A DNA stretch of 64,000 nt. Origin: Alphaproteobacteria bacterium (GTDB lineage: Bacteria > Pseudomonadota > Alphaproteobacteria > Elsterales > Elsteraceae). The stretch is taken from positions 124,001 through 188,000 of the forward strand of contig RDXE01000025.1 in the NCBI GenBank assembly GCA_004292755.1, read 5' to 3'. Numbering within the stretch: the stretch's first letter is position 1; every line of letters begins with the position of its first letter. The position numbers and the translations under genes are program-made. The notes under the pieces were generated by a model. The model saw only the letters and a program-made list of their open reading frames with translations, was not told where the DNA came from and did not search any database. Positions 12,382-19,278 of this stretch are shown here, piece after piece.

Positions 12382-14372
12382 ATGGCTCCGTTGGATCTGT
12401 CGAGCGCGTGGCGCTTCTCCGCTTGTCCCCATGATTGCCCATCCACCTGCGCGCTGGAGGTGGAAGTGCTGGACGGCACCCGCATGGGCCGGGTGCGCGG
12501 CGCGGAAGCCAATCCCTACACTGCAGGCGTGATCTGCGCCAAAGTTGCGCGCTACGCTGAACGGTTGACGGGAGCCAACCGCATCACCGAGCCCCTGCTG
12601 CGGACCGGCCCCAAAGGCACCGGCCAGTTTCACCCGATCAGTTGGGAGGAGGCGCTGGACCGCGCCACGGCTGGCATTCAGCACGCCATCACCACCCACG
12701 GGCCGGAGAGTTTCTGGCCCTACTACTACGCTGGCACGATGGGCCAGGTGCAGCGTGACGGCATCAACCGGCTGCGCCATGTGTTGAAGGCCAGCCGGAT
12801 GGACAAGACCATCTGCACCCGTTTGGCCGAGACCGGCTGGTACGCGGGCACCGGGGCTTGGGGTGGTCCTGATAGTCGGGAGATGGCGGAGGCAGACGTG
12901 ATTCTCGTCTGGGGCGGCAATCCCGTTGCCACCCAGGTGAATGTGATGACCCACATTACAACCGCGCGCAAAACCCGCGGCGCGCAGCTGGTGGTGATTG
13001 ACCCCTATCGCAGCGGCACCGCGGCCGTGGCAGACCTGCACCTCGCCCTGCGCCCTGGAACCGACGATGCCCTGGCCCATGGTGTCGCCCACTGTCTGCT
13101 GCGCGATGGTTTGGTGGATCGCGACTATCTCGCCCAGTTCAGTGACTTCTCCCCTGCGGTGGAGGATGCCTATCGCCGGTGCTCGCCTGCCTGGGCGGCC
13201 GAGATCACTGGCCTGTCTGTCGATGCAATTGAGGCGCTGGCCCGGCTGATTGGTGAGACCCAGCGCTGCTACATCCGCCTGGGCTATGGCCTTAGTCGAA
13301 CCCGCAACGGCGCCAATGCGCTTCACGCCATCACCTGTCTGCCAACCCTCACCGGCAGTTGGCGGCACCGTGGCGGCGGGGCGTTCTGGTCGCAGCGGGA
13401 CCTCTACCACCTGGACAAAACACTGGTGGAGGGGCTGGACATGGTCGACCGCTCCACCCGCTTGATTGATATGTGCTTGATTGGTCGGGCGCTAACTGGT
13501 GACCCAGAGGTGTTGGCGGGTGGCCCGCCCATTCAGGCGATGCTGGTGCAGAACACCAATCCCGCCGTCGTTGCCCCCAACACAAGCGCCGTGCTGGCTG
13601 GATTGGCGCGGGAGGACTTGTTCTTGATCGTTCACGAACAAGTGATGACCGACACTGCCCGCTATGCCGACCTTGTGCTTCCGGCCACGATGTTCGTGGA
13701 GCACGACGATCTTTACACAGCTGGCGGCCACACCCACCTGCAGGCCGGGCCGAAGCTGGTGGACCCACCGGGCCAGTGTCGCACCAACCACTGGCTGATC
13801 AACCAATTGGCCGAACGGCTGGGAGTGGCTGACCGCTCGCCCGCCTTCACCATGACCGATGTGGAGCTTGCGGACGCCACCCTCACCCGCTCCGGCTGGG
13901 GCAGCTATGGCGATCTGGTGGCGGCGCGCTGGATTGATTGCGCGCGCAGCGAGGATGCCTGCCACTTCCGCGCTGGGTTCGGCTGGCCCGATGGCCGGTT
14001 TCGGTTCCAGCCGGACTGGCCCGCACTGGGCCGGTTTGGCGGCGAGATGCCAACACTGCCAATGAAACGCCAACCGCACAAGCGCGCGAAGGCCGCCCGA
14101 CTGTGCTGATCGCCGAGGCCGACGCCATCCACCTCGGCATTGCCGACGGCGACCGGGTGGCATTGTCCAATGATCTGGGCCGGGTAATCGTGCACGCCAA
14201 ACGCGTCGCCAGTGGTCAGGCCCCTGGTACCGTGGTGGTCGAAGGCCTGTGGTCCAACCACGCCTTTGAGGGCGGTCTCGGCATCAACACCCTGGTCTCA
14301 GACGAACCGGGCTGGCCCGCCGGTGGCGGCATCTTTCACGACACCGCCGTTGCGATCGACCGGATCGGGTAA
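12382..14372 (+). pseudogene. molybdopterin oxidoreductase with internal out-of-frame deletion
   Basis: Cytosolic DMSO-reductase-superfamily oxidoreductase. The N-terminus carries the [4Fe-4S] motif CPHDCPSTC plus a later Cys in GVICAK, then the Mo-bisMGD core (SWEEALDRA, LVWGGNPVATQ, QNTNPAVVAPN). The frame ends at 14109 after GEMPTLP followed by an unrelated tail. A second frame (from about 14052) resumes with ANETPTAQAREGRPTVLI and continues as a normal Mo-cofactor-binding domain to HDTAVAIDRIG at 14372. Related proteins have about 25-35 residues between these blocks, so a segment is missing at the repeat AACACTGCCA (14052-14061). It is divergent from marR. It was once a catalytic protein and is now probably inactive unless the deletion is an assembly error. 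Confidence 0.8.
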
Positions 14373-14446: not shown

Positions 14447-15587
14447 TTAGCTCTGAGGCGGCGGTGACTTCGGCTGTAAGCTGTCGAGCAAGCGCTCCAC
14501 TTGATTGCCGTTGGTGCCGAACCCGGCTTCGGCGAGCAGCTTGTCAATCACCGGGGCATTCGCGCGATAGGCCAACAGCGTGCTCAAAAGATTGTCGGCA
14601 GGCGCATCACCCGCACGCCCGCCAGAGGGCATGCCGGAGCCAGTATCAAAAATCCGCACATCCCCGATTTTCTCTAGCGGGCGAACGCTCTCCGCCAGAA
14701 CTGCTGGCAGAATGCGCAGCCGCTCGCGCATGACTTCCAGTTCAATGATCGCAGGTGACATCAAGTTGCGCGCCTCGTTCAGCAGACGCTGACCGGCGGC
14801 ATCAACCTCGTAGGTCTTGGCCGCAGCATCTGCGCGCAGCTTCGCCGCTTCGGCCTCAGCCTCCGCCTTGATGCGCAGGGCATCGGCAGCCGCTTGTGCT
14901 TCCGTGCGGATGGCTTCTGACCGATCCAGCGCAGCGCGCTTTTCGCCATCGGCTGTGACGACAAGTTTGGTTGCGTCTTGTTCGGCTTCCTGGCGCGCGA
15001 TGATCACGGCCTTTTGCCGTTCGCGCTCCGCAATTGCGACTTGCTGTGCTGTCAGCACAGACTCGCTTGCAGCAACGGCGTCTGCACGCGCGCGCTCCGC
15101 GGCGGCGCGCGCTTCAGACTCAGCGCGGCTCTTGTCGGCGATTGCGATCGCCCGCATCTGGTCTGCCAGTTGAATGTCGCGCTGCTTTTCGATGTCGGCA
15201 GTCGCGGCTTGGCGGTCGCTCTCGATCTGGCGCTGCTTGATCGCAAGGTCGGCATCGATCCGAGCCATTTCCTCCACGCGCTTGGCCGCCGCCCGCCGCT
15301 CCGCAATCGTCTGCGCCGTCGCAATCATGGCTTCTTGTTCAAGCAGTTGGGCGCTTGCCTCACGCTCAGCTGCCGCGGCGCGCGTCTCGGCGGTTTTGTT
15401 CACAATGTCCCGGCGTTGACTGAGTTCGGCCTCTTGCTTCTGGCGCTCGATCTCGAGTGTCTTTGTCCGCGCCTCCAGATTAGGCTTTGTCCTTGGCTGC
15501 TCGGCGATACAGCCTGGATAGAGCATAGCCAATACAAGTAAATATAAAGAGAAAAAGAAACACGGTCGGAAACAACGCACTACTCAT
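14447..15587 (-). pseudogene. flotillin (YqiK/FloT-like) lacking its SPFH domain
   Basis: Remains of a membrane-scaffold flotillin. From ATG 15587 one frame gives M-S-S-A-L-F-P-T-V-F then a membrane helix and SRLYRRAAKDKA, then a stop at about 15480. This is the flotillin N-terminus that normally continues FVRTG. The adjoining frame to 14447 gives NLEARTKTLEIERQ and about 220 residues of Ala/Glu coiled coil. It ends with the flotillin tail (LLAYRANAPVIDKLLAEAGF). About 200 residues, the whole SPFH domain, are missing and the two parts are out of frame. The long frame could still be read from GTG 15580 as a 377-aa coiled-coil protein with a hydrophobic start. The partner YqiJ-like gene lies 17 bp upstream. 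Confidence 0.78.
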
Positions 15588-15603
15588 GTCATAGATTTCT
15601 ACG

Positions 15604-16149
15604 TTATTCATGGAACCCCACTACTTCAAGGACGTTGCCTTTGACGGCAACCACCAATACCTGACGCCCTGCGGCGATCTCGACATCCGGTGCTTCTGGC
15701 TCCACGCGCGGGAAGTGCATGTTGCCGTACTGATCGAAGAAGCGCGCCCGTGCAACCCGACCAATCACCGCCGGTCCGACTGTCACCTCCCCAACCCGTC
15801 CAATCAGATCGCTGCCGTTCTGGACGTAAGTTTCAGCGCGGGGAAACCAGCGGCCCAGGATACGGGAGAGATGGCGCGCCACCGGCAGTGCGGTGATTGC
15901 CGCAACCGGGACTGCTATCCAAGTGGGCAGAGCAACCGCGAGGCCGATTGCACTGGCTTGAATGGTACAGCCGAGTGCCGCAAAGGCACCGCCGAGAATC
16001 TTGAGGTAAATTGACCAAGGCATTCCAGTCGGATTCAATGCATCGAACAGCGATCCAGACGTAGCGTCAGGCACGATTACATGGAGCAACGCCGACAAGG
16101 GCTTCGCGATCAAAGCCAACACGACCTCAAGGATCACCAGCGCCAACAC
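15604..16149 (-). CDS. YqiJ/YuaF-like OB-fold membrane protein
   Basis: Inner-membrane protein of 181 residues of the DUF1449 (YqiJ) family, NfeD-like partner of flotillins. Three hydrophobic segments (about residues 1-25, 47-75 and 78-92) precede a C-terminal OB-fold (QNGSDLIGRVGEVTVGP, RQVLVVAVKGNVLEVV). The only usable start in frame is GTG 16149 (or TTG 16146), without a strong ribosome site, and the N-terminus is shorter than in E. coli YqiJ. It forms an operon with the damaged flotillin, as yqiJ-yqiK does elsewhere. The partner domain it would contact is gone. Confidence 0.78.
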   Translation of the reverse strand: MLALVILEVVLALIAKPLSALLHVIVPDATSGSLFDALNPTGMPWSIYLKILGGAFAALGCTIQASAIGLAVALPTWIAVPVAAITALPVARHLSRILGRWFPRAETYVQNGSDLIGRVGEVTVGPAVIGRVARARFFDQYGNMHFPRVEPEAPDVEIAAGRQVLVVAVKGNVLEVVGFHE

Positions 16150-16265
16150 TGTCGGGGTGAGGGCGAGATGCCGTGGAATGCAAGCCAGTTGGTATGCGTC
16201 GATGCCGAGGAGTATGTCAGCAGAGTCGACGCCTAGGGGCCGCTACCACCGGACTGATCCCAGAG

Positions 16266-16919
16266 CTAACCGTCAAAGAATCCGGGCAAAGGCGTCGTAT
16301 CAAACGGACGGGACGGTGATGGATCGGACGGACGTGTTGGGGTCGAGTCAAATGGGCGTGATGGTGACGAATCAAATGGAACACGTGTACGCCCCATGTT
16401 CCTGATACAAGAAACCATCGCAGCAGCAGCCGCGTTACTTCCTGTGAGGCTGACCCGCCACGTTCCTTCATTACCTGTCACGAACGTCAAACGCCCCTCA
16501 TTTGCTTGACGAAATGCCGACCAGAATTCTTGAGATCCTTCGGTCGCTACAAGCACTTCGACAACTGCTGGCGATTGCCCCTGACCTGGCAAAGCTTTTC
16601 CACCCCAATCTGCCGACCTGTAACCAGAGCCGAGTTCAATGCGTATTCGCACCGGCATTTCTTTATCAATATGCCAATCATTTTTGAAAAGGTGGATTGT
16701 CCAGTGCTGATTACCTGAAAAATACTTGATGTGAAAACTTCTTTGCTGTCCAGATGTCCTTAAGCCGCACACATCTTTACCAGACGATATTCGGCCAGCA
16801 TACGCTGTCCATACTCCAAACTGCCCGATGTCGGCTATCTGACCCTGCGCCGGACCGAAGGGCCAGGATACGGAAAGCACAATAGCGCCAAACACCGCTC
16901 TGATTGCATCTTTTGCCAT
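16266..16919 (-). CDS. exported protein with C-terminal octapeptide repeats
   Basis: Predicted periplasmic protein of 217 residues. The N-terminus M-A-K-D-A-I-R then a hydrophobic run ending G-P-A-Q-G-Q is a signal peptide. The mature part has W-T-A-Y, two Cys (about 51 and 166) and a beta-rich pattern reminiscent of the IalB-like exported proteins. The last 40 residues are four 8-residue repeats: PFDSSPSR, PFDSTPTR, PSDPSPSR and PFDTTPLP. No function can be assigned. Base composition is lower in GC than the flanking genes, which may mean transfer or low expression. Confidence 0.65.
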   Translation of the reverse strand: MAKDAIRAVFGAIVLSVSWPFGPAQGQIADIGQFGVWTAYAGRISSGKDVCGLRTSGQQRSFHIKYFSGNQHWTIHLFKNDWHIDKEMPVRIRIELGSGYRSADWGGKALPGQGQSPAVVEVLVATEGSQEFWSAFRQANEGRLTFVTGNEGTWRVSLTGSNAAAAAMVSCIRNMGRTRVPFDSSPSRPFDSTPTRPSDPSPSRPFDTTPLPGFFDG

Positions 16920-17037
16920 TTATCTAACCCACACCGCCATGTGGACTAACTGTTTATGATGGTATCGGAACATCTCGGCTGGTTCAAGCCCCCGCTATGC
17001 GACCGTTTTTCTCTCTCCTGAAACAACGGATTTGATA

Positions 17038-17060
17038 CGATCAGCCCTTGATCGCTTTTT
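17038..17060 (+). terminator. orphan rho-independent terminator-like hairpin
   Basis: CGATCA (17038-17043), loop GCCCT, TGATCG (17049-17054), then CTTTTT. Flanking genes run on the minus strand, so on the plus strand this hairpin would end an unannotated transcript. The 6-bp stem is modest, hence low confidence. Confidence 0.35.
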
Positions 17061-17210
17061 GATATGTTGATGGACGTGACTGGACTCAACAGGCCGCCAG
17101 CCTAAATGGTCTTTTCCCAGAACGATGCCGACTCAAAACAGAGCTGAAACAACCAGTGCTCAGTCAGCCAAATAGAAAGACCATCCCAGGAAACTGCAGA
17201 TACAAGAAGC

Positions 17211-17235
17211 GCGGGTCGCCGTTGCCGACGCCCGC
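17211..17235 (-). terminator. hairpin downstream of phoX
   Basis: On the minus strand GCGGG-C-GTCG, loop GCAA, CGGC-GA-CCCGC forms a stem of about ten pairs with one bulge, 28 bp beyond the phoX stop. There is no good T-run after it, so it may be a processing or stability element instead of a classical terminator. Confidence 0.35.
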
Positions 17236-17262
17236 GCCTCCCGACTGGAGAGGATGGTGTGG

Positions 17263-19278
17263 TTAGCTTCCGATCACACCGCCATCGGTCTTGCGCACCA
17301 TGACCACCGACGGACGCGGCGGCATGTTGGGCTGGAAGTCCGGCCAACGGGTGGCCGGGTCTTCAAAGGTGCTTTCCCGTGCGAAGGGGCGGAAATCGCC
17401 GGTGCCGTCGACACCGGGGTGCTGCACGGCGATGGTCATCGCGCGGTCACCCGGCAGGAAGTGCATGCCGCAGATTTCCGCGCCAATCGGCGTGCGGAAG
17501 AACAGCTTGGAGGTGCCACGTCCCGTACCATGGGTCTCGACTGCATAGACACCGTCGGCACGACCAGAAGCGCGCGACCAAGAACCACCCTGGTCGGTAC
17601 CGACCCACAGACGACCCTGACCGTCGATCGCCATGTTGTCCGGGCAGGCCATCCAACCATTGGCCGAGGTGGCCGGGTTGTACATGGCACCAACCGCGGC
17701 AATCGTCGGGTTGCCGCAGCGGATCAGGATTTCCCAGCGGAACGTGGTCGCCGCGTGGTCGTCGTTGGTGTTGATCATCTCAAGCACCTGGCCCCACTCA
17801 TTGGCCGGGCGGCTGTTCGGACCGTTCAACTGGTCCGGACGGCGACGATCATTGTTGGTGAGCGCAACATAGACGCGACCGGTGGTGGCGTTCGGCTCCA
17901 CGTCTTCGGGGCGGTCCATCGGGGTGGCGCCCAGCAGGTCCGCCGCGCGGCGGGCTTCGATCATCACGTCGGCTTGGCTGTTGAAGCCATTGGCCGCAGT
18001 CAGCGGGCCGGTGCCGAACACCAGCGGCATCCACACGCCGGTTCCGTCGTCATTGTACTTGGCAACGAACAGCGTGCCGTCATCCAACAGGCTGCGGTTG
18101 GCGCGACGGTCCGTGCGGTTGATGCGGTTCCGGCTGACGAACTTGTAAACATACTCGAAACGCTCGTCGTCGCCCATGTAGACGACCACGCGACCATCTC
18201 TGTTGACGATGGACTCGGCGCCTTCGTTCTTCTTGCGGCCGAGGGCGGTGCGCTTCACCGGCATGGACGTCGGATCATAGGGATCGATCTCGACAATCCA
18301 GCCGAAGCGGTTGCTTTCCATCGGCTCCTTGGTCGCATCCCAGCGGTCGTAATAGTCCGCCCAGTTATACCAGCGCTCACCCACGCCATAGCGGCGCTGA
18401 TTGCGGAATTCCGGATGGCCTTCTGGGACGCGGTTGGAGCTGTAGCCGTGGAAGTTCTCTTCCGCGGTCAGGTAGGTGCCCCAGGGGGTCATGCCGCCAG
18501 CACAGTTGTTGACGGTGCCGATGACGCGGGTGCCAGTCGGGTCAGCCGTGGTGCGCATCCGCGGATGGCCAGCGGCCGGGCCGGAGATTGCCATCACAGT
18601 GTCGCCAGTGGTCAGGCGACGGTTGTAGCGGCTGTTGCGAACATAAGTGTACTTGCCGTCGCGACCGCGCTGGATTTCGACGACCGAGCAGCCATGCGCG
18701 GCCATCTCGATGTCCACCAAGTCCTTGGTCATCTTGCCGAAGCCAGCGCGCTCGCCCTGGCGACCGACACCAGCGAACATCACCTCTTCGGAGGTGTACT
18801 CGTGGTTGATGCACAGAAGACCACGATCGGCATTGCGGCTACCCCACTCTGGCAGCGGTGCATAGCCGACATAGTCGCAATTGTAGCCGAATTGACGGCG
18901 CTGTGCTGCCGCGCTCTGACGGGTCGGATCGAACTCCGGCGCATCGGCAAACAGCGGGTCACCCCACCGCAGCACGACATCGACGGTATAGCCCGGAGCG
19001 ACATGATGGGTTTGGTCCACCCCGTGCTCTGGCTCGGCGAAGCGGAATCCAGCGCGCGGTGCACCGGCAGCCTCGGCCTCGCCTGCCGCCAGTGCCAACG
19101 GAGCGGCCACGGCCGTGATGGCCGCAGCACCCAGCGCCCCCTTCAGCATCTCGCGACGACCAAAGCGTTGGTTGATGACGTCGCCGATGGTCGGCTCAGT
19201 GGACGGATTGACGCCGACATCCTGCGACAGCTCATAAGCTTGTGCGCGGGTCAGGCCGTCATAATTGCGTTCGGTCAT
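17263..19278 (-). CDS. phoX: PhoX-family alkaline phosphatase (DUF839), Tat-exported
   Basis: Periplasmic phosphomonoesterase of 671 residues releasing phosphate from organic esters; PhoX enzymes use Ca and Fe. A twin-arginine signal sits unusually deep: about 40 residues of leader (including TRAQAYELSQDVGVNPSTEP), then FGRREMLKG and a hydrophobic stretch to LALAAGEAEA. Family motifs include GYTVDVVLRWGDPLF, NHEYTSEE, NNCAGGMTPWGTYLTAEEN in segments, and ACPDNMAIDGQGRLWVGTDQ in segments. The start region is tandemly duplicated. ATG 19278 overlaps the stop of an 8-codon leader peptide, and a Pho-box-like site lies about 100 bp upstream. Both point to phosphate-controlled expression with translational coupling. 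Confidence 0.92.
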   Translation of the reverse strand: MTERNYDGLTRAQAYELSQDVGVNPSTEPTIGDVINQRFGRREMLKGALGAAAITAVAAPLALAAGEAEAAGAPRAGFRFAEPEHGVDQTHHVAPGYTVDVVLRWGDPLFADAPEFDPTRQSAAAQRRQFGYNCDYVGYAPLPEWGSRNADRGLLCINHEYTSEEVMFAGVGRQGERAGFGKMTKDLVDIEMAAHGCSVVEIQRGRDGKYTYVRNSRYNRRLTTGDTVMAISGPAAGHPRMRTTADPTGTRVIGTVNNCAGGMTPWGTYLTAEENFHGYSSNRVPEGHPEFRNQRRYGVGERWYNWADYYDRWDATKEPMESNRFGWIVEIDPYDPTSMPVKRTALGRKKNEGAESIVNRDGRVVVYMGDDERFEYVYKFVSRNRINRTDRRANRSLLDDGTLFVAKYNDDGTGVWMPLVFGTGPLTAANGFNSQADVMIEARRAADLLGATPMDRPEDVEPNATTGRVYVALTNNDRRRPDQLNGPNSRPANEWGQVLEMINTNDDHAATTFRWEILIRCGNPTIAAVGAMYNPATSANGWMACPDNMAIDGQGRLWVGTDQGGSWSRASGRADGVYAVETHGTGRGTSKLFFRTPIGAEICGMHFLPGDRAMTIAVQHPGVDGTGDFRPFARESTFEDPATRWPDFQPNMPPRPSVVMVRKTDGGVIGS

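Follow-up and report, generated by a model that had tools for sequence, protein, structure and literature searches.

Prokaryotic flotillins of the SPFH2 group, including YqiK of Escherichia coli and YuaG (FloT) of Bacillus subtilis, are described as having an NfeD-like operon partner, YqiJ or YuaF (PMC2636767). The locus described below lies within the window, a stretch of 64,000 nucleotides. Like the SPFH2-group flotillins, it combines an N-terminal anchor, a coiled coil and a Flot domain with a YqiJ-like gene upstream, but it lacks the SPFH domain and the gene is split into two frames.

Bacterial pseudogenes formed by internal out-of-frame deletion are a second known kind to which the locus can be compared. 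As in those, intact homologues are present elsewhere, both flanks are preserved and the frame is broken; nothing notable sets the locus apart from them, save a similar lesion in the neighbouring gene. We conclude that this is very probably a YqiK/FloT-type flotillin pseudogene, inactivated by a recent deletion in a locally decaying region.

Organization of the flotillin locus

The locus is read from the minus strand: after the yqiJ-like gene come a 43-residue ORF and then, in another frame, the C-terminal part of the flotillin (Table 1). The ATG of the 43-residue ORF, at 15611, overlaps the end of the yqiJ-like gene. The ORF reads the flotillin anchor to LYRRAAKDKA, with a best 19-residue hydropathy mean of 2.21, and then meets a TAA at 15482-15480, while the second frame starts NLEARTKTLEIE. 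The initial annotation had described the two frames in just this way; its range for the feature, 14447-15587, takes in the C-terminal ORF but leaves the start of the anchor ORF outside. The Flot domain of the C-terminal ORF is complete (PF15975, E 4.1e-31, profile 1-124 of 124) and is its sole Pfam domain. In a codon-usage scan, the C-terminal coding signal starts at 15481, right at the joint, and the part of the 377-aa ORF upstream of ~15481 is an out-of-frame reading of the old anchor.

Measured against a prokaryotic flotillin (YqiK/FloT), the locus has the membrane anchor, which aligns with those of its homologues, the coiled coil with the Flot domain (PF15975 and alignment) and, directly upstream, the NfeD-like partner of the operon (YqiJ; PF07290, E 6.1e-15). 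The SPFH/Band_7 domain is missing, with 193 residues gone and no Band_7 match at the locus, and the single continuous frame is interrupted by the stop at 15482-15480, beyond which the C-terminal part lies in another frame.

The surviving anchor piece (15484-15611, minus strand) is markedly AT-rich, with GC by codon position of 0.41/0.36/0.46. GC3 of the flotillin C-terminal part is 0.73, and the anchor region has a GC of 0.56-0.70 across the 14 homologues compared. The anchor ORF may have come under relaxed constraint or may be of different origin.

Table 1. Coordinates of the features at and beside the flotillin locus, numbered within the window
Feature	Position	Strand	Basis
Convergent molybdopterin oxidoreductase gene, broken by a ~91-bp out-of-frame deletion near 14046-14062	12382..14372	+	Homologue comparison, Pfam, coding signal
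377-aa ORF from GTG, with coiled coil and Flot domain from ~15481 down	14447..15580	-	PF15975, coding signal 14483-15481
Deletion joint, ~578 bp (193 residues minus one base) gone	15479..15484	-	193 residues in 6/6 homologues measured; alignment
43-residue ORF, flotillin N-terminal membrane anchor	15480..15611	-	Aligns with anchor of full-length homologues; TAA just past deletion joint
yqiJ-like partner gene, open frame	15607..16212	-	Pfam, homologue alignment, coding signal

Size and nature of the deletion

Exactly 193 residues separate a KDRA-like motif from a D/N-L-E/D-A motif in each of the six intact homologues measured (G192, G044, G411, G468, G365 and G005); the motif was not found in a seventh, G046. 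The region absent from the window is the SPFH region. Because this interval is the same in every homologue measured and one base of it is kept in the window, the missing length is 3 x 193 - 1 = 578 bp, out of frame, provided that no other indel occurred. Both the missing length and the frame break are direct observations, and they bear out the earlier estimate of about 200 residues lost out of frame. When the translated halves were aligned, a check suggested at the outset, both fragments matched single full-length homologues, and chance is therefore excluded.

The event had initially been ascribed to deletion between short repeats at the joint. The string pointed out there is part of an 8-bp repeat, CTTTGTCC, present at 15461-15468 and 15485-15492, 24 bp start to start. 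A repeat-mediated event leaves one copy, and here both survive, so this origin is unsupported and we rejected it. Judging by the residues of the homologues at the two ends, about one base of overlap would be permitted at the joint. A programmed +1 frameshift at the joint was likewise rejected, by reasoning only, because the P-site tRNA would re-pair poorly with the shifted codon.

Neighbouring genes

The YqiJ partner had been called intact. Its frame is open and the OB-fold domain PF07290 is found, but YqiJ_N falls just below the Pfam cut-off (20.6 vs 23) and there is no recognised start at the conserved column. The start Met of the homologues aligns with the window codon at ~16203 (within 16201-16215), which is none of ATG, GTG or TTG, in 8/9 cases, and the ninth homologue begins one column later. 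The first usable codon is GTG 16149, 18 residues inside, and the coding signal in the codon-usage scan still reaches 16212. The yqiJ-like gene is not clearly intact.

The convergent neighbour, a molybdopterin oxidoreductase gene, carries a second lesion, 1.4 kb from the flotillin joint. PF00384 lies in 12382-14106 and PF01568, the C-terminal binding domain, in another frame, in 13938-14369, and the coding signal changes frame near 14046-14062 in the codon-usage scan. At this same place the gene is ~30 residues short of the homologues in five family members (G002, G003, G005, G007 and G008, the copy in G008 being itself split over two frames). The remaining coding segments of the window look orderly in the codon-usage scan. 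The best explanation is a locally decaying stretch, comprising a yqiJ without a recognised start at the conserved place and a convergent neighbour with a second out-of-frame deletion.

On the far side of the yqiJ-like gene, ~1 kb (16213-17271) is without clear coding signal. An ORF at 16266-16919 (minus strand) has no Pfam match, a GC3 of 0.45 and a repetitive RPFDSTPTRP-like tail. A genome of the same genus (G001:C300 = L022/L091; G001:C56 = L016/L029/L092) lacks yqiJ and flotillin after the PhoX 3' end, where other genes follow, and has a MarR-like stretch upstream of PhoX. The neighbourhood therefore differs between the two species.

Search of the assembly for the missing piece

The genome assembly consists of 95 contigs and is 99.91% complete, and the joint occurs in it once, within a 367-kb contig. 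The SPFH piece of G192, which found its own source at E 1.7e-120, gave no match better than E 0.55 in the window's genome. No second flotillin was found in this assembly; the initial annotation had recommended seeking a complete one in the rest of the genome. Pfam Band_7 matches only two places, both on contig C75, in adjacent genes that we take to be hflK/hflC.

Were the gap an assembly artefact or a minority variant, the organism would have an intact flotillin and the contig would skip ~578 bp of it. A draft assembly in this many contigs leaves room for such an error, and the presence of two similar gaps within 1.4 kb might point to local trouble. However, the joint is unique and lies inside its large contig, the missing piece is absent from all other contigs, and the repeats near the joint are <=10 bp, too short for assembler joining. 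As skipping 578 bp would require a longer shared word than is present, we consider an artefact or minority variant very unlikely.

Flotillin relatives

Among the loci collected for comparison, relatives were surveyed by blastp at E 1e-10 or better, and rows with identical last 150 residues were dropped. Of the 58 distinct flotillin ORFs that remained, a contig end truncates 2, and 56 have a complete 5' side. The region lost in the window is kept in 54/56, so that intact homologues elsewhere can be set against the broken frame here. These 54 have at least 222 residues ahead of the coiled coil, including 6 without an exact VRTG-type motif that are full length all the same; the exceptions are the window and G341. 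In a sample of 398 genomes from the phylum, 36 match at E 1e-30, the window's own included, and the other 35/35 are open frames of at least 552 aa.

Closer to the window, the one other genome of its genus has no homologue, and a 39-40% relative is all that 3/7 other family members possess. Sister strains, sought by one scan of genome contigs, returned a single distant match, from Bacillota, at 28%. Plasmid matches amounted to 290 records, all of <60% identity.

Homologues naturally lacking SPFH with the same junction, the case that the initial annotation had set against its own proposal, were looked for among the 56 ORFs and in the phylum sample, and no other genome has the window's joint. A natural lineage of SPFH-lacking flotillins with the window as a member was set aside on this ground and is extremely improbable. 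G341 alone speaks for such a lineage, and its deletion differs: it is in frame, with ~114 residues gone and the second half of SPFH kept, whereas the window is without the whole region and out of frame.

G341 comes from a different family within the same class, and the part that its flotillin lost is the anchor and the first part of SPFH. The gene (L037/L098, G341:C8) lies at ~1004-2134 on the minus strand of its contig, behind a complete yqiJ. The two loci are alike in having a flotillin beside YqiJ that has lost part of its N-terminal region, but that of G341 keeps the ATG and AGGAGG as well as its frame, and it may be a working short flotillin. Only G341 matches among 10 genomes of its family. 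In relative-rate tests of G341, p was 0.003 when the window served as outgroup (2/2), but 0.34 and 0.80 when G365 did (2/2).

Selection, age and possible expression

The C-terminal frame had been described as undamaged, which holds: it is open over 344 codons, with PF15975 complete. Relative-rate comparisons over 314 aligned codons from 15 sequences gave no excess of position 1+2 changes in this frame (6/6, p 0.18 to 1.0); none would be expected after a recent break. Under neutrality and with indels ignored, the frame would still be open with a 50% chance after 0.024 substitutions/site and with a 5% chance after ~0.105. The explanation is either a recent deletion or a fragment still in use; the selection data fit both and do not decide. 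As the C-terminal frame has not decayed, the deletion was probably fairly recent. In 3/4 three-taxon codon-model fits, branch lengths reached or approached the upper bound, and no conclusion was drawn from these fits. The deep nodes of the protein tree have low support (13 to 68), and the dating makes no use of it.

The C-terminal ORF might instead encode a working SPFH-less protein, starting at GTG 15580 with a new hydrophobic N-terminus or at ATG 15268 as a soluble coiled-coil/Flot protein. Its 344-codon open frame, with divergence weighted to codon position 3 as in intact homologues, is consistent with this, and the alternative N-terminus read from GTG 15580 is indeed hydrophobic (best 19-residue mean 2.07). 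The internal ATG 15268 has a strong ribosome-binding-like sequence (-9.3), and in G341 a complete yqiJ does adjoin an in-frame flotillin that is partly SPFH-less. Yet the strong 15268 site is made of Glu codons in the coiled coil and could have arisen by chance, the genes next door are decaying, and the ribosome-binding energy at GTG 15580, -2.2 kcal/mol, is no better than at 300 random positions (median -2.5). Expression from GTG 15580, as proposed earlier, is thus possible on paper, but from a weak start. Taken together, a working C-terminal protein seems unlikely, and we favour the pseudogene, counting against it the strong site at ATG 15268 and the C-terminal frame's showing no sign of relaxed selection.

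At the anchor ORF, the ATG overlapping the end of yqiJ has a ribosome-binding energy of -5.7. Since the stop and start overlap here and this ribosome-binding site is the better one, the 43-residue membrane peptide is probably still made by translational coupling to the end of yqiJ, and there is probably little, if any, synthesis of the coiled coil.

Discussion

The arrangement of the locus suggests the following course for the pseudogene. A chromosomal deletion of ~578 bp would have removed the SPFH region and shifted the coiled coil out of frame with the anchor. Ribosomes finishing yqiJ would then restart at the overlapping ATG, make the 43-residue membrane peptide and stop. Neither piece should act as a flotillin, because the SPFH (PHB) domain of B. 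subtilis YuaG (FloT) suffices for oligomerisation (PMC4312047). By this analogy, neither fragment would be expected to form the flotillin scaffold.

A bolder reading is that the deletion made a new protein, in which the coiled coil and Flot domain gained a hydrophobic N-terminus from another frame (GTG 15580), giving an SPFH-less flotillin that works beside YqiJ. On this view, G341 would independently have taken a second step towards SPFH-poor flotillins. We regard this as very unlikely.

Loss of a flotillin is biologically plausible, given that the growth of E. coli SPFH mutants, single and quadruple, was not significantly impaired in either rich or minimal medium (PMC10434171), and that P. 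aeruginosa SPFH genes are reported to be largely dispensable (PMC13086221). The locus would then be one more loss of a dispensable flotillin. It matters chiefly for annotation, since gene-calling software could report a 377-aa 'flotillin domain protein' without an SPFH domain. Proof that the C-terminal piece is produced and used would allow the role of the coiled coil to be told apart from that of the SPFH domain.
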